56,950 nucleotides of DNA from an uncultured Chryseobacterium sp. (GTDB lineage: Bacteria > Bacteroidota > Bacteroidia > Flavobacteriales > Weeksellaceae). Positions 7,045 through 16,717 of this stretch are shown here, piece by piece. Each line of letters begins with the position of its first letter. Positions within the stretch are counted from its first letter, which is position 1. The stretch is taken from the NCBI GenBank assembly GCA_913775525.1, contig CAJYLH010000042.1:1-56950 (forward strand). The letters are read 5' to 3'. The translations under genes and the position numbers were made by a program. The notes below the pieces were generated by a model. The model did not search any database. It saw only the letters and a list, made by a program, of their open reading frames with translations, and had not been told where the DNA came from.

Positions 7045-7548
7045 TTATCTGATCTCCACACAGCCCACTCTTCCGCCTGCATTTCCGGTGGGCTGGGTAT
7101 GGAAATCATCCTTATCTGCATGGATGATAATGCCTTTCCCCATAATATTCTTGGAAGCATCCTCGCATCCCAGACACCACTTATCCGTTTTGAACGTCAG
7201 TGTGGCAGTGCCGCTCTGATCTGCCGTAAGGTTTCCTATATCACCCATATGGAAGTGTTCCGCACCCCATTTTCCGTGGTCGTCCTTGGCAGGATTCCAG
7301 TGCCCTCCTGCTGAAGTTCCGTCAGGAGCTGAGCAGTCTCCCTTTTCATGGATGTGTACGGCATGGATGCCCGGTGTAAGGTTGGTTACATCCAGCTTCA
7401 TAATGACCTCATTCCCTTTTTGAGTGAATTTTGCCGTTCCGCCGGTCTGGGTATTGCTTTTAGACATCACCTGATAGGTGTGGCTGGTTCCGCAGGAAAC
7501 TGCAAATAAAGCGCTTCCGGCTAATAATGTTAATGTTTTAAGGTTCAT
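7045..7548 (-). CDS. sodC: Cu,Zn superoxide dismutase, lipoprotein
   Basis: A 167-residue SodC that dismutates superoxide in the periplasm. The lipobox AVSC puts the lipidated cysteine at residue 19. Metal ligands are visible: HIH at 65-67 (copper), GGHWNP with H83 (bridging), H91 and later His/Asp of HFHMGD (zinc), and H143 in IIHADKDD (copper). C72 and C163 form the expected disulfide and R160 sits in the GNAGGRVGC C-terminal motif. All catalytic residues appear present. The gene is divergent from the AraC-type regulator and converges on prc. Confidence 0.95.
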   Translation of the reverse strand: MNLKTLTLLAGSALFAVSCGTSHTYQVMSKSNTQTGGTAKFTQKGNEVIMKLDVTNLTPGIHAVHIHEKGDCSAPDGTSAGGHWNPAKDDHGKWGAEHFHMGDIGNLTADQSGTATLTFKTDKWCLGCEDASKNIMGKGIIIHADKDDFHTQPTGNAGGRVGCVEIR

Positions 7549-8752: not shown

Positions 8753-8823
8753 ACCGTTCAGGTTCGAAAAATGACCGTTCAGGAACAAAAATTTATCTGC
8801 ATTTAAATTTCACCTTACTTTTG
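8753..8823 (+). promoter_or_regulatory. LytTR-type operator and promoter of the TonB receptor unit
   Basis: Two identical 9-bp direct repeats ACCGTTCAG lie at 8753-8761 and 8774-8782, start-to-start distance 21 bp. This fits the LytTR consensus of two [TA][AC][CA]GTTN[AG][TG] half-sites with a 12-bp gap. A -7 element TACTTTTG follows at 8816-8823, 42 bp from the start of the second repeat, with no evident TTG box, as expected for an activator-dependent promoter. The same layout occurs at 11852-11922 and 15217-15288. The likely binder is the LytTR regulator encoded at 15974-16717. Confidence 0.8.
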
Positions 8824-8840
8824 AACCGTAATCAACAGGT

Positions 8841-11063
8841 ATGAAAACAAAACTATTATTTCTGATCTCTTTCTTATGCTCTATGCTGAGCCTTGCCCAG
8901 ACAAAAGTATCCGGTAGAGTAACCTATAAAAGCAAAGGTGTTGCAGATGTGAATATTACATTAAAAAATACGTATGACGGTGCGACTACTGATGCTGAAG
9001 GAAACTTTACCTTTGAAACCAATGAAAAAGGCAGCCGGGTCATCACCTTTACCCATCCCAAATACGATGATGTAGAGAAACCGGTGATGATCCAGGACCA
9101 GGCGATCACGGTAAATGCAGAACTGAAGGAGCAGATCAATGAAATAGATGCCGTAGTGGTATCCGCAGGATCTATTGAAGCAAGCGATAAAAAACGGGCT
9201 ACCGCTCTGCTGACGCCCATCGATATCTATACTACCGCAGGAGCAGACGGGCAGATTTCCTCAGCTTTAACCTATCTTCCCGGGGTACAGAAAGTAGGGG
9301 AGTCCGAAGGCCTTTTCATCCGCGGCGGAACCGGAGCCGAATCCAAAATATTTATGGACGGAAGCCTCATCAACAACTATTTTTCCAACTCCGTACCGGG
9401 CATTGCAGGAAGAGATCGTTTCAACACGTCTCTGTTCAAAGGGAATATATTTTCCAGCGGTGGTTATTCAGCATTGTACGGACAGGCTCTTTCCGGGGCA
9501 CTGATGCTGGAAAGCGTTGGCCTGCCGAATGAAAGCTCTTATGATATCGGAGTTTCACCGATATTCATTGATGCAGGCTTCCAGCGTTTAAGTAAGAATA
9601 AGAATTATTCTTATGGAGCTACAGCAGGCTATTCCAACCTGGAGCTGATGCAGAATGTACTGCATTTCAATACGGACTTTATACAATCTCCGCGCAGCAT
9701 GAATGGAGACCTGAATTTCAGGATCAGAACAAAATCCGGCGGATTTTTTAAATATTATGGAAAGTATGATATGAACAGGATGGCAGTAAAGACCGAAAGC
9801 CTCGAGCCGCAGTACGATGCTGCGCTGATACGGCTGAAAGGGGCAAATACTTATCATAACCTTTCTTTCAGGCAAAAATTCGGGAAGTACCTGCTGCACA
9901 TAGGAAGCTCGTATTCCTACAACCGTTCAGACCTTAACTTTTCAACGGAGAATGCAGGCCGGGAATCTGCCCGGACCCAATTGCTGACCGATGGGAATTA
10001 CATCAACCTCAAAGCGGTCCTGGAAAGGAAAATCAACAGGATCAGCGCACTGAGGGGCGGATTTGAATTCAACAACTCAGATGAACAGCTTCATTTCCAG
10101 CAGGTGAATAAAAAATACAATGACCTGATCTCTTCTGCATTTGTGGAATCAGATCTGGGATTCAGCAACCAGCTGTCTGCAAAAATAGGCGTACGGGCAG
10201 AGCATTCATCCTTTCTGGATAAAAGTAATATCGCACCCAGGCTTGCGCTTGCTTACCGACTGGATAAGAACTGGACGAGTTCCGTTGCCTACGGACTTTT
10301 CTACCAGAACCCTGAAAGCAGGTATATCAATGCACCTGCCAACCTCGGATTCCAGCAGTCACAGCATTATATTTTCCAGGTCCAGCGGGCATCAGAGGGG
10401 AGGAGCCTGAGACTGGAAGCATTTTACAAGAAATATGACCAGCTGATCAAAACCTTTATTCTAAACCCCGGTGAAACCCAGAACCAGCAGATCCAGACAG
10501 CCCTTAATAATGACGGTTATGGCTACGCCAAAGGGGCAGAATTTTTCTGGCGGGATAAGAAGACCTTCAAAAATATCGATTACTGGATCAGCTATTCCTA
10601 TCTGGATTCCAAAAGGGATTTTATGAATTATCCGGTAAGCCTGAAACCCAATTTTGCTGCGGAACACACACTCTCTGTGGTAGCCAAAAGGTTTATTACG
10701 GAGTGGAAACTGGGGGCCAACCTGTCTTATACATATGCTAAAGGAAGGCCGTATTATGACATCGTCAGCCAGCAGAACAGCAACATCATCCGGAATGAAG
10801 GAAGATTGAAGGATTACAGTTCCCTGAACCTGAGCTTCAACTACCTGCCGAACCTTGGGAAAAAGGATGCAAAAGCATTTACTATATTTGTGTTGAGCAT
10901 TTCCAATGTATTAGGGACGAAGAATATGTACGGATATAACTTTTCCGGTGACGGATCCAGGAGCTCTGCCGTTGTTCCGCCTTCCAATACTTTTGTCTTT
11001 GTGGGAGCCTTCATCAGCTTCGGGGTAGATAAAACGGAGGATGCCATTAATAATAATTTGTAA
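8841..11063 (+). CDS. TonB-dependent outer-membrane receptor
   Basis: A 740-residue receptor. A signal peptide (residues 1-20, ending SLAQ) precedes a carboxypeptidase-regulatory-like beta domain (about 22-100), a plug domain (about 105-225, with LFIRGGTGAESKIFMDG) and a long Tyr/Phe-rich beta barrel to the C-terminus. It lies in the outer membrane and imports a ligand using the TonB-ExbB-ExbD motor; such genes are present at 35951-38029. No SusD partner is encoded, so a glycan role is not indicated; siderophore, metal or peptide uptake are possible. The promoter carries a LytTR-type operator, which ties it to the sensor genes at 11940-16717. Confidence 0.93.
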   Translation: MKTKLLFLISFLCSMLSLAQTKVSGRVTYKSKGVADVNITLKNTYDGATTDAEGNFTFETNEKGSRVITFTHPKYDDVEKPVMIQDQAITVNAELKEQINEIDAVVVSAGSIEASDKKRATALLTPIDIYTTAGADGQISSALTYLPGVQKVGESEGLFIRGGTGAESKIFMDGSLINNYFSNSVPGIAGRDRFNTSLFKGNIFSSGGYSALYGQALSGALMLESVGLPNESSYDIGVSPIFIDAGFQRLSKNKNYSYGATAGYSNLELMQNVLHFNTDFIQSPRSMNGDLNFRIRTKSGGFFKYYGKYDMNRMAVKTESLEPQYDAALIRLKGANTYHNLSFRQKFGKYLLHIGSSYSYNRSDLNFSTENAGRESARTQLLTDGNYINLKAVLERKINRISALRGGFEFNNSDEQLHFQQVNKKYNDLISSAFVESDLGFSNQLSAKIGVRAEHSSFLDKSNIAPRLALAYRLDKNWTSSVAYGLFYQNPESRYINAPANLGFQQSQHYIFQVQRASEGRSLRLEAFYKKYDQLIKTFILNPGETQNQQIQTALNNDGYGYAKGAEFFWRDKKTFKNIDYWISYSYLDSKRDFMNYPVSLKPNFAAEHTLSVVAKRFITEWKLGANLSYTYAKGRPYYDIVSQQNSNIIRNEGRLKDYSSLNLSFNYLPNLGKKDAKAFTIFVLSISNVLGTKNMYGYNFSGDGSRSSAVVPPSNTFVFVGAFISFGVDKTEDAINNNL

Positions 11064-11156
11064 ATGATGAAGAATCAGTAGAGGTAATGATTTTATTATA
11101 TAAATTAAATATATATCTTTGAATAATTATACAGTAACCTTAAAAAAATTGAAAAA

Positions 11157-11804
11157 ATGAAGAAATATTTATTGAGTTTTGCGCTGGCTTTTGTAAGCTT
11201 AACAGCCTTTGCACAGACCGATTATGAAAAAGTAATGACTGAAAAAGTGGCCAAGATAGAAACGGCCAAAACAGCGGAAGATTTCCAGGCTCTTGCCAAT
11301 GATTTCCATAGGATTGCAGGAAAAGATGAAAACAACTGGCTTCCGTTTTACTATGCGGCGCTGGCGAACATCCAGAAAGGAAGGGTGCTGATGCAGCAGG
11401 GCAAAACCCAGGATCTTGATTTCATCGCAGGCCAGGCAGAGAAATACATTGGGGCAGCTTCCCATGTAGCGCCTACCGATAATGCTGAACTCCATTTGTT
11501 GAGCAAAATGGCTTACTCCTTAAAGATGATGGTTAACCCTCAGCAAAGATATATGACTGATGGGGCAAAAGCGACTGAAGAACTTAAAAAGGCTGAAAAG
11601 CTGGATCCGAATAATCCGAGAATCGCGCTGATCAAAGCTGAAGATGTTTATTTTATGCCGGAACAGTACGGAGGAAGCAAAGTAAAGGGAATGGAAATGT
11701 TTAAAGATGCTTTGAACAAGTTCAAGTCCTATACTCCGAAAACAGCATTGGATCCTAACTGGGGGAAATCTGAAGCGGAATATTTCGTAAGCCAGGCTAA
11801 ATAA
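11157..11804 (+). CDS. exported helical repeat protein
   Basis: A 215-residue protein with a clear signal peptide (MKKYLLSFALAFVSLTAFAQ). The mature part is helical and looks TPR-like: alternating Ala/Leu/Lys helices with the segments LKKAEKLDPNNPRIALIKAE and an N-terminal IETAKTAEDFQALANDFHRI. It resembles small bacteroidete periplasmic proteins found after outer-membrane receptors, with no assigned role. It starts 93 bases after the TonB receptor and ends at a strong terminator, so the two likely share the LytTR-type promoter. Function is unknown. Confidence 0.8.
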   Translation: MKKYLLSFALAFVSLTAFAQTDYEKVMTEKVAKIETAKTAEDFQALANDFHRIAGKDENNWLPFYYAALANIQKGRVLMQQGKTQDLDFIAGQAEKYIGAASHVAPTDNAELHLLSKMAYSLKMMVNPQQRYMTDGAKATEELKKAEKLDPNNPRIALIKAEDVYFMPEQYGGSKVKGMEMFKDALNKFKSYTPKTALDPNWGKSEAEYFVSQAK

Positions 11805-11823
11805 TTGAGTACGATATCCAACT

Positions 11824-11850
11824 AACCTTCCGTTAAGGAAGGTTTTTTTA
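11824..11850 (+). terminator. terminator of the TonB receptor unit
   Basis: Perfect 8-bp stem AACCTTCC / GGAAGGTT with a 5-base loop, followed by a run of seven T. It closes the unit just before the next operator. Confidence 0.9.
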
Positions 11851-11851
11851 T

Positions 11852-11922
11852 ACCGTTCAGTCTTCAAAAACGACTGTTCGGGAGAAAATAATTGGCGTAA
11901 ATATTCTAATAGATTAATTTTG
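11852..11922 (+). promoter_or_regulatory. LytTR-type operator and promoter of the kinase unit
   Basis: Half-sites ACCGTTCAG (11852-11860) and ACTGTTCGG (11873-11881) are 21 bp apart start to start. TAATTTTG at 11915-11922 begins 42 bp after the second half-site, exactly as upstream of the TonB receptor. A TTG at 11892-11894 gives a usable -33 box. This predicts autoregulation of the kinase. Confidence 0.8.
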
Positions 11923-11939
11923 AACCAGGAAAACCATTT

Positions 11940-13256
11940 ATGAAACGCAGGAACCTTATTACTTTATGCTGGATATCACTGGCAACATCCATGATTTTTT
12001 TCTTCGGGTTTACAGATGAGAAGACGCTGAGTAATTTCCTGCTTACCGTTATTGTATGTTTTATGTACTCTTTTGTGTTAGCCATGGGAAACAGCTATAT
12101 CAACGATTTCCTGAACAAAAGGTTTCCGTGGTCTGAGGCCACTACCAAGAGAGCCATGATCAGCATTGTGTCCATTCTCATCGCAAATACCATAATGGTG
12201 TACTTCTGCAACTACATGAATTTTGTCGTTTTTCAGAAGGCTGCGACTACCGAAGAATATTTTTCGGGAAAGTATAGCTTTATCAATTGGTTTACGATTA
12301 ATATTGCCCTGCTGATTTCAGCGTTCCTGCACGCCAAAGGGTTTATGGAAGAACTGAAAAAGTCTTCCCGCAAGGAAGTCGTAGAACAGAAGCTCATTGC
12401 CAAATCCGCTAATGCCCAGTTTGAAAGCTTAAAGAATCAGCTGGATCCGCATTTCCTGTTCAATTCCCTGAATGTTTTGAGTTCCCTGATCGACGAAAAC
12501 CCAAACCAGGCCCAGAAGTTTACAGCCTCAATGTCAAAGATTTACAGGTATGTCCTGGAGCAGAAAGATAAGGAACTGGTGACGGTGGAAGACGAGATTG
12601 AATTTGCCAGGACTTATTGTGACCTGCTGAAAACCAGGTTTGAAGACAGCGTAGATTTTATCTTTGAGGTAAGGAAAGAGGATTACCGCAGGTTTGTCGT
12701 TCCGCTTTCTTTACAGCTGTTGCTGGAAAACTGCATCAAGCATAATTTTGCCACCTCATCAAGGCCGCTCATCATTAAAATATTTTCTGAAAATGATACC
12801 CTCTGCATTGAAAACAACCTTCAGGTCCGGGAGCAGATCAAGGAAAGTTCCGGAATCGGCCTGGCCAATATTGTCCAGCGCTATTCACTGCTGACGAAAA
12901 GGAATGTATTCATTGAAAAATCAGAAGACTATTTTAAAGTAAAACTTCCGGTGCTGGTCAGTAAGCCTAATGAAATCAGTATTAAAACGGATACTTCGGA
13001 TAAAGCCTACGAAAGGGCACAGAAACGCGTAAAGGAACTGAAGAGTTTTTACGGCAACCTTACTTCCTATTGCATTGTAATCCCGTCCCTTGTTATCATT
13101 AACCTGATTACAAGCCCGGATGACCTTTGGTTTTATTATCCGATGCTGGGATGGGGAATTGGCATCGCCGCTCACGGAATCAGCGCTTTCGGAATCGGTA
13201 AAAGATGGGAGGAGAAAAAGATCCGGGAAATTTTAGAAAAACAGCATAAACGATAA
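11940..13256 (+). CDS. LytS-type sensor histidine kinase with C-terminal 2TM domain
   Basis: A 438-residue kinase of the LytS (His_kinase) branch. Four hydrophobic helices fill residues about 5-135. The phospho-acceptor motif NQLDPHFLFNSLN places the histidine at residue 171, and the ATP site has LLLENCIKHN with N264 and a GIGLANIVQRY glycine motif. After the catalytic domain an extra 2TM domain is fused (residues about 354-438: AYERAQKRVKELKSFYGN, two hydrophobic helices, KRWEEKKIREI). This fusion is unusual, and the extra domain is very similar to the stand-alone protein at 15326-15619. The ligand is unknown. The likely partner is the LytTR regulator at 15974-16717. A LytTR-type operator precedes it. 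Confidence 0.92.
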   Translation: MKRRNLITLCWISLATSMIFFFGFTDEKTLSNFLLTVIVCFMYSFVLAMGNSYINDFLNKRFPWSEATTKRAMISIVSILIANTIMVYFCNYMNFVVFQKAATTEEYFSGKYSFINWFTINIALLISAFLHAKGFMEELKKSSRKEVVEQKLIAKSANAQFESLKNQLDPHFLFNSLNVLSSLIDENPNQAQKFTASMSKIYRYVLEQKDKELVTVEDEIEFARTYCDLLKTRFEDSVDFIFEVRKEDYRRFVVPLSLQLLLENCIKHNFATSSRPLIIKIFSENDTLCIENNLQVREQIKESSGIGLANIVQRYSLLTKRNVFIEKSEDYFKVKLPVLVSKPNEISIKTDTSDKAYERAQKRVKELKSFYGNLTSYCIVIPSLVIINLITSPDDLWFYYPMLGWGIGIAAHGISAFGIGKRWEEKKIREILEKQHKR

Positions 13257-13274
13257 TCATTAAACAACAAATTT

Positions 13275-13598
13275 ATGGAAGAGATCAGCCAGGACGATAT
13301 CCGCTACAAACAGGCAGAAAAAAGAGTGAAACAAATCAAGAACTTCTACATGTTCCTCTTTGTGTATATTGTGGTGAATATATTTATCTTAATTACCAAT
13401 TACCGCGAACTGAAACCGGGCCAGACCCTCTGGCACCTTAAATACTTCAGCCTTCCGCTGTTCTGGGGAATAGGTCTTTTGGTATACGGATTGCGGGTAT
13501 TTGTCCCTAACTTTATCCTGGGGAACCATTGGGAAGAAAAGAAGATCCAACAGCTTATGGATGAGGAAATGAATTCCCGTAACAAATTAAAACAGTAA
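13275..13598 (+). CDS. 2TM-domain protein
   Basis: A 107-residue membrane protein of the 2TM domain type. It has an amphipathic N-terminal helix (YKQAEKRVKQIKNFYMFL), two membrane helices and a conserved NHWEEKKIQQLMDEE tail facing the cytoplasm. It lies 18 bases after the kinase and is surely in the same unit. The family often accompanies LytTR regulators in bacteroidetes; a role in modulating the kinase at the membrane is inference. It is one of four 2TM domains in this 4-kb region. Confidence 0.88.
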   Translation: MEEISQDDIRYKQAEKRVKQIKNFYMFLFVYIVVNIFILITNYRELKPGQTLWHLKYFSLPLFWGIGLLVYGLRVFVPNFILGNHWEEKKIQQLMDEEMNSRNKLKQ

Positions 13599-13602
13599 AC
13601 AA

Positions 13603-14172
13603 ATGAATGCTCTGGAGATTGTATTTGCCGTTTCTATGGTGGCCTGGTTCATCAGCGAATTCCTGTATAAGAACATATTAAAGTCCGGTGAAACAGACCG
13701 GAAAGGAAAAGACCGGTCTACCCTGAATGTCCTTTGGATCGCCATCCCGTTTTCCATTATCAGTGCAGTAACCTTGTCTTACTATACCAGGTTTCCAATT
13801 GCACACGATATCTGGATCCTATATCTGGGAGAAGCATTGATTCTGATTGGAATTATTGTCCGGTTCATCATCATCCGTTCATTGGGTAAATACTTTACCG
13901 TTGATGTGACGATCAGGAAAGACCACACCATCAAAAAGGAGGGTTTTTACAGGTATCTCAGGCATCCATCCTATACATTTTCCCTGCTTACTTCTTTAGG
14001 CCTTGGATTATACCTCAATAACTGGCTTTCATTGGCTTTAGCGTTTATTCCTCCGTTCATCGCTTTCAGCTACAGGATTAAAATTGAAGAAGCCGCGCTT
14101 ATTGAGCAGTTTGGCGAGGAGTATCTGGAATACCGGCGCAAAACCAGGAAGCTGATTCCGTTTATCTATTGA
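13603..14172 (+). CDS. isoprenylcysteine carboxyl methyltransferase-like membrane protein
   Basis: A 189-residue integral membrane protein with several hydrophobic helices and the ICMT/PEMT signature in the C-terminal half: YRYLRHPSY, then IEEAALIEQFGEEYLEYRRKT and a LIP ending. These residues bind S-adenosylmethionine and shape the membrane active site in that superfamily. The substrate in bacteria is not established and may be a lipid or other hydrophobic molecule. Four bases separate it from the 2TM gene, so it completes the kinase unit. A lipid-modifying product could be part of the response, which is inference. Confidence 0.85.
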   Translation: MNALEIVFAVSMVAWFISEFLYKNILKSGETDRKGKDRSTLNVLWIAIPFSIISAVTLSYYTRFPIAHDIWILYLGEALILIGIIVRFIIIRSLGKYFTVDVTIRKDHTIKKEGFYRYLRHPSYTFSLLTSLGLGLYLNNWLSLALAFIPPFIAFSYRIKIEEAALIEQFGEEYLEYRRKTRKLIPFIY

Positions 14173-14190
14173 AGATTAAAATCTGTTTTT

Positions 14191-14637
14191 TCAGCGGATT
14201 AATTTCTGCAGCTGTGCATTGAATGTTTTTTTATTGTCAGTCGCAGAGAAAAAATCACGGTCAAAGTTTTCCACCGTTACAACTGCCTGTTTTACAATAT
14301 CTGATCCTTTTTTAGTAAGTTGAATGGTTTTGGCCCTCGTATCGGTTACATGCTCTTTCCGCATGATGTATTGTTTTTTTTCCAGCGTTCTCAGTACGGT
14401 TGAAGTGGTCATCGGATCTATTTTGGTATGGGATGACAAAACAATCTGTGTTACTTCCTTTTCATGAAGTTCAAGCCAGTGGATACTGGCCATCAGGACA
14501 TATTGGGAATGGGTGAGATCATAAATTTCCAGAGCTTTTTTAATTTTCCTTTGCCAGAGATTGGTTACCTGCCACAGAAGAAACCCTGAACTGTCTTCTG
14601 CATGTTCAAAGCTAAAAATACTTTTTTTTTCGTTCAT
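14191..14637 (-). CDS. MarR-family transcriptional regulator
   Basis: A 148-residue regulator with the MarR winged-helix core: YDLTHSQYVLMASIHWL, EVTQIVLSSHTKIDPMTTSTVLRTLEK as the recognition region, then the wing with the Arg/Asp motif (DTRAKTIQLTKKG). It would bind DNA as a dimer and respond to small phenolic or other ligands. Its ATG overlaps the stop of the SRPBCC gene upstream (14634-14637), so the two form an operon. It converges on the ICMT-like gene with only 18 bases between them. Confidence 0.9.
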   Translation of the reverse strand: MNEKKSIFSFEHAEDSSGFLLWQVTNLWQRKIKKALEIYDLTHSQYVLMASIHWLELHEKEVTQIVLSSHTKIDPMTTSTVLRTLEKKQYIMRKEHVTDTRAKTIQLTKKGSDIVKQAVVTVENFDRDFFSATDNKKTFNAQLQKLIR

Positions 14638-15053
14638 AATTTTTTTGCCGACCGGATCTGATTAGCCACATCTTCCGGCCATGAATGTACAATATTTTTT
14701 GCAACCAGCCTTACCCATAGGAAACCCAGCACTCCTTTAACGGTTATGGTATTGGTTATTTTTAATCCTTCAGGAGTATCCTCAAATAGATGCTCGTCAT
14801 ACATTTTTGCCAACGGAAACTGCGTTAGATCCAGAAACATTCTGTTTTCAATGGTTTTAATCAGGGTAACTTTTACTTCTGGCCCGCCTTTCGGTTTTAA
14901 AACAAAGAAATTTCCCTGTTCAAACTTCCCAGAGATTATAGCATATTCAGTGCCTTCATCCCAGGTATGCCAATGATTGACATCCGCAAAAAGTTTCCAG
15001 ATCTGTTCTTTAGTGATTTCGTTAGTCGTTGTTGAAAAGGTTCTTGTCCACAT
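14634..15053 (-). CDS. SRPBCC (polyketide cyclase/START-like) protein
   Basis: A 139-residue protein of the SRPBCC ligand-binding fold: N-terminal strand and helix EITKEQIWKLFADVNHWHTWDEGTEYA, then alternating strands with a C-terminal helix. Such proteins enclose a hydrophobic cavity; enzymatic role here is unknown. It precedes and overlaps the MarR-type regulator, which may control it and sense the same ligand. The pair sits on the minus strand between two LytTR-type units and shares no operator with them. Confidence 0.85.
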   Translation of the reverse strand: MWTRTFSTTTNEITKEQIWKLFADVNHWHTWDEGTEYAIISGKFEQGNFFVLKPKGGPEVKVTLIKTIENRMFLDLTQFPLAKMYDEHLFEDTPEGLKITNTITVKGVLGFLWVRLVAKNIVHSWPEDVANQIRSAKKL

Positions 15054-15216
15054 GATACATTTTAAATTGTAATTACAAATATAATAAGTTTACTTATTAA
15101 TTCAACATTTTTTTTTGATTTTACATTTTAAGGCCTGTTTTTGAATCTGATACGTAACACTGTAGAGGTTTTCACAGTATTGTGGAAGTAAGTAATCCTG
15201 ATCAACATATATTTTC

Positions 15217-15288
15217 ACCGTTCGGTATTCATTTTCTACGGTTCGGTCAGTTAAAATTGATCCGGAGGTGAACATTGACCTACATTTG
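15217..15288 (+). promoter_or_regulatory. LytTR-type operator and promoter of the response regulator unit
   Basis: Half-sites ACCGTTCGG (15217-15225) and ACGGTTCGG (15238-15246) are 21 bp apart. The second has one mismatch to the LytTR half-site consensus. TACATTTG at 15281-15288 starts 43 bp after the second half-site and a TTG lies at 15257-15259. The three matching promoters of this region point to one regulon with autoregulation. Confidence 0.75.
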
Positions 15289-15325
15289 TCTCAACAAAAA
15301 CAAACAGTTTAATCTAAACAAAAAA

Positions 15326-15619
15326 ATGGATACATCATTCAACACAGAAAGCAGGGCATACGAGAAAGCAGCCCGAAGAGTGAAAGAAATCAAAGGCTTT
15401 TACAGCAACCTGACTTCGTACTGCCTGGTCATCCCTTTCCTGATCGTTTTAAACCTGCTGACTTCCCCTGAGAATCTCTGGTTTTTCTGGCCGATGCTGG
15501 GATGGGGAATAGGAATTGCTGCCCATGGAGTAAGTACTTTCGGGATCGGGAGAAACTGGGAAGAAAAAAAGATCAGGGAACTGATGGACGAAGAGCAAAA
15601 ACAGGCAAAAACTTTTTAA
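15326..15619 (+). CDS. 2TM-domain protein, near-copy of the kinase tail
   Basis: A 97-residue 2TM protein. Its sequence tracks the C-terminal domain of the kinase closely (AYEKAARRVKEIKGFY, LTSYCLVIP, GWGIGIAAHG, GIGRNWEEKKIREL), which suggests duplication within this locus or fission/fusion. Two membrane helices lie at about 30-50 and 57-75. The start at 15326 follows the -7 element and gives the family's normal N-terminus; an upstream in-frame alternative overlaps the promoter. It begins the unit that ends with the LytTR regulator. Confidence 0.88.
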   Translation: MDTSFNTESRAYEKAARRVKEIKGFYSNLTSYCLVIPFLIVLNLLTSPENLWFFWPMLGWGIGIAAHGVSTFGIGRNWEEKKIRELMDEEQKQAKTF

Positions 15620-15645
15620 TTATATCAACCGTAAAATAAATTACC

Positions 15646-15921
15646 ATGGATTATTATCACGCACAACAACGGGTAAAAGAGCTGACAAGGTTTTATAAAA
15701 GCCTTCTATGGTTCGGTATCGTCTCCATCGTTATTTTTTCCGATGACCTCTTTGAAAAAGGAATTTTCAGCATTTCACACTGGGATGGATCAATTCTTCT
15801 TTTGATCTGGGGAATTATTCTGACGGTAAAAGCCGTAAAGTTATTTATCTTTGATGCCGACTGGGAAAGAAGCATTGTAGAAAAAGAAATGGGTAAACAT
15901 AAGGACCCGGTTAAATTTTAA
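15646..15921 (+). CDS. divergent 2TM-domain protein
   Basis: A 91-residue membrane protein with the same layout as the other 2TM proteins: an N-terminal amphipathic helix (YYHAQQRVKELTRFYKSL), two hydrophobic segments and a charged tail (DADWERSIVEKEM). It is more diverged and lacks the GWGIGIAAHG core. It lies 26 bases after its neighbour and 52 bases before the regulator gene, in the same unit. The role is unknown beyond the association with the LytS/LytTR pair. Confidence 0.85.
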   Translation: MDYYHAQQRVKELTRFYKSLLWFGIVSIVIFSDDLFEKGIFSISHWDGSILLLIWGIILTVKAVKLFIFDADWERSIVEKEMGKHKDPVKF

Positions 15922-15973
15922 TATGCCGGAACTTTCAGTCGCTTTTAATTCGGAAATCAAACAGAGATAAACA

Positions 15974-16717
15974 ATGATCAAAACGGTTATTATTGAAGAT
16001 GAAAAACCTGCTTTAAGAAAGCTTGAACGGATGCTGGATACTTTTCCCGATATCGAAATCGTGGCCAGGATAGAATCTGTAGAGGAGGGCAAACAATGGT
16101 TCTCTGAAAACGACCATCCGCAGCTGATCTTTTCTGATATTGTCCTGGGAGACGGGCTATCCTTCGACATCTTTCAGGAATTTCCTACCAAAGCATTCAT
16201 TATCTACACCACCGCTTTTGATCAGTATACGCTGAAAGCCTTCAAGCTGAACAGCATCGATTATCTTCTGAAGCCGATCCTGGATGAAGACCTTGCCGGT
16301 GCAGTGGAAAAATTCAAATCCTTTATCCCATCCGGGAACGCAGTCAGCTCACAGGAAATCAAACAGCTGATCAAGGAGGATAAAAGCACGCTTTCCAGAA
16401 TCCTGGTAAAGATCGGGTACAACCTGAAGATTGTCCAGACCCATGAAGTCAGCTGTTTTTTCAGCGAAAATAAAATAGTCTACCTTCAGACTAAAGACCG
16501 CTCTTATCCTTCAGATTTTACCCTGGATGAGCTGGCCGATGTGCTGGATGAAAACAAATTTTTCAGAGTCAACCGGCAGTTTATCATCAATTCAGATTAC
16601 ATCAGCAATATCCATACGTCTCCGTATTATAAAGTTGAGCTTGAGTTTCAGCCTGAAGATGAAATCACGGTCAGCCGTGAACGCGTGAAGGATTTTAAGG
16701 ACTGGCTGGTGAGGTAG
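15974..16717 (+). CDS. LytTR-family response regulator
   Basis: A 247-residue response regulator. The receiver domain (1-115) has the acidic pocket E8/D9, the phospho-acceptor D55 in IFSDIVLGDG and the LLKPI lysine motif. The LytTR DNA-binding domain occupies about 145-247 (VKIGYNLKIVQTHEV, then FFRVNRQFIINSDYI). LytTR proteins bind paired 9-bp direct repeats; three such pairs occur in this region at 8753, 11852 and 15217, the last upstream of this unit. It is the probable partner of the LytS-type kinase at 11940. The signal and the whole regulon are unknown. Confidence 0.93.
   Translation: MIKTVIIEDEKPALRKLERMLDTFPDIEIVARIESVEEGKQWFSENDHPQLIFSDIVLGDGLSFDIFQEFPTKAFIIYTTAFDQYTLKAFKLNSIDYLLKPILDEDLAGAVEKFKSFIPSGNAVSSQEIKQLIKEDKSTLSRILVKIGYNLKIVQTHEVSCFFSENKIVYLQTKDRSYPSDFTLDELADVLDENKFFRVNRQFIINSDYISNIHTSPYYKVELEFQPEDEITVSRERVKDFKDWLVR

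Follow-up and report, generated by a model that had tools for sequence, protein, structure and literature searches.

Twin LytTR-type direct repeats and a predicted two-component regulon at a putative HusA-like uptake locus of Chryseobacterium

Organisation of the locus

We analysed a 56,950-nucleotide stretch of DNA (the window) from an uncultured Chryseobacterium sp. of the Weeksellaceae (GenBank assembly GCA_913775525.1, contig CAJYLH010000042.1, positions 1 to 56,950, forward strand). The window carries the genes of a histidine kinase, a LytTR response regulator, a TonB-dependent receptor and a HusA-like exported protein, together with pairs of 9-bp direct repeats, here called twin sites. 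The genes form three units: receptor and HusA-like protein; kinase, free 2TM protein a (2TMa) and ICMT-like protein; free 2TM proteins b and c (2TMb and 2TMc) and regulator. Their positions are as follows.

8841..11063, + strand: TonB-dependent receptor, 740 aa; CarbopepD_reg_2 and Plug domains; HusB-like by position
11157..11804, + strand: HusA-like exported protein, 215 aa; phmmer and profile homology to HusA (PG_2227)
11940..13256, + strand: histidine kinase, 438 aa; PF06580 core and C-terminal 2TM domain (PF13239, residues 358-432)
13275..13598, + strand: free 2TM protein a, 107 aa; 2TM domain match
13603..14172, + strand: ICMT-like membrane protein, 189 aa; Pfam ICMT
15326..15619, + strand: free 2TM protein b, 97 aa; 2TM domain match
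15646..15921, + strand: free 2TM protein c, 91 aa; 2TM domain match
15974..16717, + strand: LytTR response regulator, 247 aa; Response_reg and LytTR domains

Twin sites in the window and in its genome

Each unit is preceded by a twin site and a -7 element.

8753..8782, + strand: twin site of the receptor unit; half-sites 8753-8761 (ACCGTTCAG) and 8774-8782 (ACCGTTCAG)
8816..8823, + strand: -7 element of the receptor unit (TACTTTTG); the TT of its -33 element is at 8793-8794
11852..11881, + strand: twin site of the kinase unit; half-sites at 11852 (ACCGTTCAG) and 11873 (ACTGTTCGG)
11915..11922, + strand: -7 element of the kinase unit (TAATTTTG)
15217..15246, + strand: twin site of the regulator unit; half-sites at 15217 (ACCGTTCGG) and 15238 (ACGGTTCGG)
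15281..15288, + strand: -7 element of the regulator unit (TACATTTG)

A first-pass annotation had described pairs of 9-bp half-sites, 21 bp apart, at three promoters, and both positions and spacing proved exact. The promoter spacing it gave was also right: TAnnTTTG begins 42, 42 and 43 bp past the start of the second half-site. It had further counted five of the six half-sites as matching [TA][AC][CA]GTTN[AG][TG], but the correct number is four, with ACTGTTCGG and ACGGTTCGG deviating at position 3. Among the three pairs, the one at 8753 is alone in showing a full fit of both halves to this consensus at a spacing of 21.

The genome search that the annotation had proposed was performed with ACCGTTCRG-N12-ACCGTTCRG. 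With one mismatch at most, it returned three matches in 4,110,424 bases, all of them the window sites. When up to three mismatches were allowed, 24 matches were obtained against 4 for the reversed-pattern control; 12 of the 21 other matches were inspected, and all 12 lay within open frames, none of them shorter than 186 codons. A pattern combining the half-sites with the -33 and -7 elements (the strict pattern) matched three times in this genome, with no control matches there. The twin sites are confirmed as genuine and occur in the genome above chance frequency.

Conservation of the sites and promoter geometry in the family

Related loci were examined in a set of 61, comprising the window and 60 of the 101 other regulator-bearing genomes of the family, chosen for spread or for the question and not at random. 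The best pair with no more than four mismatches was scored ahead of each gene. Here and throughout, genome and locus counts are uncorrected for kinship. Conservation, which the annotation had named as a check, was borne out, as twin sites recurred ahead of the corresponding units across the relatives. A site was found before the receptor gene in 30 of 34 cases. Before the kinase gene it was present in 31 of 39 loci with an upstream gap of more than 120 bp and in 0 of 22 without such a gap, and before 2TMb in 18 of 20 with the gap and 0 of 3 without. The counts for 2TMa were 9/40 and 0/28, respectively. For the HusA-like gene a site was scored in 12 of 38 cases (9/13 with a gap and 3/25 without). 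No site preceded the inner genes of these loci, namely ICMT (0/24), 2TMc (0/32) and the regulator gene (0/61).

The distance between site and gene was 75-135 bp for 99 of the 100 sites found. TAnnTTTG stood at +42 or +43 in 82 of 99 sites. The two T of the -33 element, bases 11 and 12 after the end of the repeat, were present in 97% and 95%, which leaves a gap of 10 bp between the repeat and the -33 element. The family consensus of the site is about ACCRTTCRG-N5-AAAA-N3-ACCGTTCRG. Minus-strand matches were rare, one each in 5 of the 61 loci. A scan of 98 same-genus genomes at one mismatch or fewer gave a match in 35 and a control match in 1; some of the matches were unplaced with respect to genes.

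The spacer and flanks of the sites are AT-rich, as might be expected if the repeats were a product of chance or an ordinary part of the core promoter. That explanation is contradicted by the conservation described above; the rarity of the pattern in the genome, the empty controls and the specificity for unit heads and for a period of 21 (see below) also speak against it, and we consider its probability negligible. A second alternative concerns the sign of regulation, with the regulator repressing the three units instead of activating them. The repeat keeps a constant distance upstream of the -33 element, and tested LytTR activators occupy this position in the available part of PMC6193735; repression therefore appears unlikely.

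Two side observations were made in these comparisons. In L151:1495-1545 (G142), three ACCGTTC half-sites follow one another in 21-bp steps, and no frame of at least 70 codons begins just downstream on the same strand. In the window, the interval 14191-15053 (- strand), between the ICMT-like gene and 2TMb, holds two genes, one MarR-like and one whose match to Polyketide_cyc2 is weak and below the cut-off; in none of the 60 relatives' loci was either of them named.

Co-occurrence of the site and the regulator

The regulator matched Response_reg with 35.4 bits (cut-off 30.2) and LytTR with 75.2 bits (cut-off 22.6). Its acidic residues E8, D9 and D55 and its K100 were invariant across 18 orthologues. 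An orthologue (E <= 1e-60) was detected in 102 of 148 family genomes, and a genome with no match at this threshold was counted as being without the regulator. Eight genomes were retested at E <= 1e-20, and six of them gave a match, including G001 and G040, which had already been counted as regulator-bearing. The strict pattern was found in 75 of the 148 genomes and its control in none. It was present in 74 of the 102 genomes with the regulator and in 1 of the 46 without it (Fisher p 2e-17, uncorrected for kinship). In the single exception, G076, the strict site is at L150:3527, the nearest frames are short, and a diverged LytTR relative is encoded elsewhere in the genome. About 4 kb of short frames only lie beside this site, apparently an eroded copy of the operon. 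A relative of the regulator, 45% identical to the query, was also noted in L205, a record titled Bifidobacterium breve that is possibly mislabelled or a mixed bin.

Another LytTR protein might bind the sites, the neighbouring LytTR gene being merely one of its targets. The genome contains nine LytTR domains, and self-regulation is not readable from sequence alone, both of which leave room for this view. Against it stand the co-occurrence of site and orthologue, the repeat that accompanies the following kinase/LytTR pair in the phylum sample described below, and the finding that 0 of the 24 matches with up to three mismatches lie within 30 kb of other LytTR places on the same contig. We regard a different binder as quite improbable.

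Relocated and additional predicted targets

The receptor and HusA-like genes of other genera sit apart from the kinase gene. We examined 16 receptors from 38 genomes, which had been picked for spread or for a particular question and not at random. The strict pattern preceded the receptor gene, the HusA-like gene or both in 10 of these 16 loci (L120-L123, L125, L126, L128 and L130-L132). The receptor lies about 45 kb from the kinase site in G008 and on a separate contig in G141.

Additional strict sites in other genomes precede the gene of an exported alpha/beta hydrolase of 261-265 aa. This hydrolase (E <= 1e-50) was found in 32 of the 148 family genomes, all 32 regulator-bearing; the search of the window's genome at the same threshold found none. 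Thirty loci out of 33 matches were examined, and a site with no more than four mismatches was scored before the hydrolase gene in 29. In the thirtieth (L137) the gene start had been misplaced in scoring, and the site was present on inspection. As judged from its upstream sites, the exported alpha/beta hydrolase is a further target of the predicted regulon in other genomes.

Neighbouring genes of these targets were noted as well. In g9 genomes the hydrolase target is immediately preceded, on its own strand, by a phosphatidylserine decarboxylase gene (L136:4650-5300, - strand). In the window, the gene of a superoxide-dismutase-like lipoprotein (7045-7548, - strand) lies divergently upstream of the receptor gene; such a gene is divergent within 2.5 kb of the receptor in 35 of 45 receptor loci, relocated receptors included.

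The locus and its repeat beyond the family

From a regulator-profile scan beyond the family, the best 80 loci were kept. Among them, the order receptor, HusA-like, kinase, 2TM, regulator was seen in Flavobacterium and Aquimarina loci, and Tenacibaculum loci had kinase, 2TM and regulator with no HusA-like gene. A Sphingobacterium locus (L221) and one from a Cytophagales record (L222) had receptor, HusA-like, kinase and regulator genes and no 2TM gene. A loose form of the repeat, two copies of ACNRTTCRK with a period of 21, accompanies the same operon in Flavobacteriaceae and in some more distant Bacteroidota. With two mismatches or fewer, a period of 21 gave a match in 45 of the 64 upstream regions, which came from 48 loci beyond the family. 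Control periods of 17-20 and 22-25 gave 0-2 of these regions, and the expectation from shuffling was 0.05.

The HusA-like protein was detected in 109 of the 395 genomes of a phylum sample, and 40 loci were taken from these 109 genomes, again picked for spread or for a question and not at random. A receptor gene was near the HusA-like gene in 32 of the 40 loci, and a kinase/LytTR pair followed in 17. The loose repeat was found in 14 of 30 regions where such a pair follows (9 of 17 loci) against 3 of 42 regions without one (2 of 23 loci). About half of the distant loci with a kinase/LytTR pair thus have no repeat of this form. Because the pair is found in 17 of 40 loci and the repeat in 9 of 17 loci with the pair, the LytTR link appears common across the phylum and not universal.

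The HusA-like protein and its probable cargo

The HusA-like protein matched PG_2227 (6bqs, 6crl) by phmmer with an E-value of 1.4e-25 over residues 21-210, and a 40-member profile of the HusA-like family matched it with an E-value of 2.4e-38. The homology spans the mature protein, and on this comparison the exported protein is a homologue of HusA, a haemophore-like protein from Porphyromonas gingivalis that binds porphyrin. Its predicted structure is all-helical (pLDDT 92.5). The entry 6CRL is HusA, according to the portion of PMC10100897 available. HusA is described, in the accessible part of PMC6173696, as a TPR-like helical protein with a hydrophobic groove in which haem and porphyrins are bound without coordinating the iron. 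At the place of W130 an aromatic residue is kept in 39 of 41 family members, and at that of Y164 F or Y is kept in 39 of 41. Since these aromatic places are kept in the family and are mostly glycine outside it, porphyrin is a fair prediction for the ligand in the window's family and a less sure one elsewhere.

The same regulon could serve a different cargo, with the HusA-like protein and the receptor importing a non-porphyrin, for example an ester-containing or lipid-like compound, which the hydrolase would process where present. The exported hydrolase whose gene follows this site in other genomes, the ICMT-like membrane enzyme in the kinase unit and the glycine that mostly fills the aromatic groove places outside the family all favour such a cargo, whereas the HusA homology across the mature protein and the groove places kept in the family point back to porphyrin. 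We see a non-porphyrin cargo as a serious possibility that falls somewhat short of an even chance. Two receptor residues, His509 and His609, were considered as haem ligands and set aside; they are unchanged in all 42 of the aligned receptors, but such residues can be structural.

The kinase, the 2TM proteins and the ICMT-like protein

The kinase has four hydrophobic segments at its N-terminus and matched PF06580 with 88.2 bits (cut-off 25.2). Its phospho-acceptor H171 and the ATP-binding residues N264 and G307 were invariant in 29 kinases. The first-pass annotation had spoken of a LytS/LytTR pair, and this stands for the LytS-type His_kinase core; it fails for the LytS sensor domain, as a Pfam scan of the kinase (E <= 0.001) gave only His_kinase and 2TM and no 5TMR_LYT.

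Four 2TM domains were found in the genome, all at this locus: the kinase carries one, and the other three are free-standing proteins. Between 2TMb and the 2TM domain of the kinase, 54 of 81 aligned residues are identical. Among 133 loci with kinase and regulator, which are mutually related and in which L114 and L163 apparently represent one organism and L174 has a cut kinase, 102 had both fused and free 2TM, 22 neither, 6 the fused form only and 3 the free form only. As fused and free 2TM co-occur across the loci, the free proteins appear to be tied to the kinase's domain, and the view that they belong to the system of this regulon is supported by these comparisons. Nothing on this system was found in the literature on 2TM domain-containing proteins, as far as it was available, or in the accessible part of PMC11237479.

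The ICMT-like protein matched Pfam ICMT with 67.4 bits (cut-off 24). It was rejected as a true isoprenylcysteine methyltransferase because its NCBIfam equivalog score of 98.7 bits is below the cut-off of 160; hence it is called ICMT-like only. ICMT-like genes also occur within receptor, HusA-like and kinase loci of a Bacteroidales record (L234) and of another distant genome (L296).

Proposed regulon

In the first-pass annotation, the kinase/LytTR pair was proposed to regulate itself and to drive the genes for the receptor, the exported protein and the ICMT-like enzyme. The sites at unit heads, the relocated sites and the co-occurrence of site and regulator support this proposal at the level of sequence. 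We consider it probable that the locus forms a two-component LytTR regulon with positive autoregulation, serving HusAB-type uptake. In this model, we infer binding by the regulator, activation rather than repression, phosphotransfer, the ligand and the function of the 2TM proteins. The membrane kinase would sense an envelope or ligand cue and phosphorylate the LytTR regulator, which would bind the 9-12-9 direct repeat as two subunits, 10 bp upstream of the -33 element. The bound regulator would then activate all three units, those of the receptor, the kinase and the regulator. The HusA-like protein would capture a planar, hydrophobic molecule, with porphyrin or haem the most likely candidates, and hand it on through the TonB receptor, so that uptake would be the output. 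The free 2TM proteins may pair with the 2TM domain of the kinase or compete at it, and thereby tune the kinase.

Several findings weigh against this reading. The strict pattern is absent from 28 of the 102 regulator-bearing genomes and from 6 of the 16 receptor loci (L124, L127, L129 and L133-L135). Of these six, L124, from a genome without a regulator orthologue, lacks a site under the loose count as well, and L134 has a perfect loose site despite the lack of the strict pattern. Eight LytTR domains exist in the genome besides that of this regulator, so that another could bind. The hydrolase has no obvious place in haem uptake. The groove residues L123, V124, W130 and Y164 of HusA correspond to M125, V126, Y132 and F166 here, changed in kind. 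Outside the family, glycine is found at the W130 place in 31 of 33 members and at the Y164 place in 30 of 33, in a wide alignment where many members have an aromatic residue one column off the W130 place and a one-column shift is possible. Finally, a sequence search of the PDB with the receptor gave no match.

With the predicted regulon, a Bacteroidota two-component system would have a predicted class of ligand, a DNA site that is defined and a small number of targets, and capture proteins of the HusA type would be linked to a regulator dedicated to them. The 2TM domains, fused and free, make it possible to test whether a sensor is tuned by copies of one of its domains. We tentatively propose, as an idea with rather less chance of standing than of falling, that the free 2TM proteins represent a novel class of kinase tuners: as copies of the kinase's membrane domain, expressed from the regulon to which the kinase belongs, they would dock on it and adjust its gain. 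With the dedicated LytTR regulator they would form a control module of HusAB-type uptake that is widespread in Bacteroidota. The repeat, two ACNRTTCRK with a 21-bp period and a fixed promoter offset, can be used to find the regulon in other genomes. What this analysis adds is the connection to HusA, the group of 2TM proteins, the hydrolase as a further target, and the finding that the site is conserved outside the family as well.

Comparison with known systems

A literature search found no description of this system and no tie between HusA and LytTR; it covered mostly openly accessible papers and is weak evidence of absence. The portion of PMC5395568 available counts LytTR proteins in Flavobacterium and has nothing further on the system. 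The papers cited below were likewise available in part, and the comparisons refer to those parts.

As in the Hus system of P. gingivalis (HusA and HusB), an exported protein, here a HusA homologue, stands beside a TonB-dependent receptor (PMC6173696, PMC10100897). Unlike that system, the locus in the window has a LytTR twin site, its own kinase, 2TM proteins and an ICMT-like gene. HaeSR of P. gingivalis is a two-component control of haem acquisition in Bacteroidota (PMC3764172), as is predicted here; the available text of that paper makes no mention of LytTR or of words starting with hus.

The E. coli systems BtsSR and YpdAB share with the window a PF06580 kinase and a LytTR response regulator (PMC5552118). 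BtsR was the best NCBIfam match of the regulator; assignment as a BtsR equivalog was rejected, as the score of 105.5 bits is below the cut-off of 246. Unlike BtsSR and YpdAB, the window kinase has no detected 5TMR_LYT domain, and the targets differ.

A parallel in DNA architecture is provided by HdrRM and BrsRM, LytTR Regulatory Systems (LRS) of S. mutans, which have 9-bp direct repeats with a 12-bp gap, autoregulation and small membrane proteins, as is the case or predicted here (PMC6193735). Their repeats commonly lie 10 bp upstream of the -35 element, and here the same 10 bp separate the repeat from the -33 element. For HdrR and other LytTR autoregulators, binding and positive feedback have been measured (PMC6193735). 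HdrRM and BrsRM consist of a LytTR protein and a membrane inhibitor, apart from phosphosignalling, whereas the window encodes a kinase, a receiver domain and 2TM (PF13239) proteins. Because an LRS is without a kinase and a kinase is present here, the system in the window would not be an LRS.

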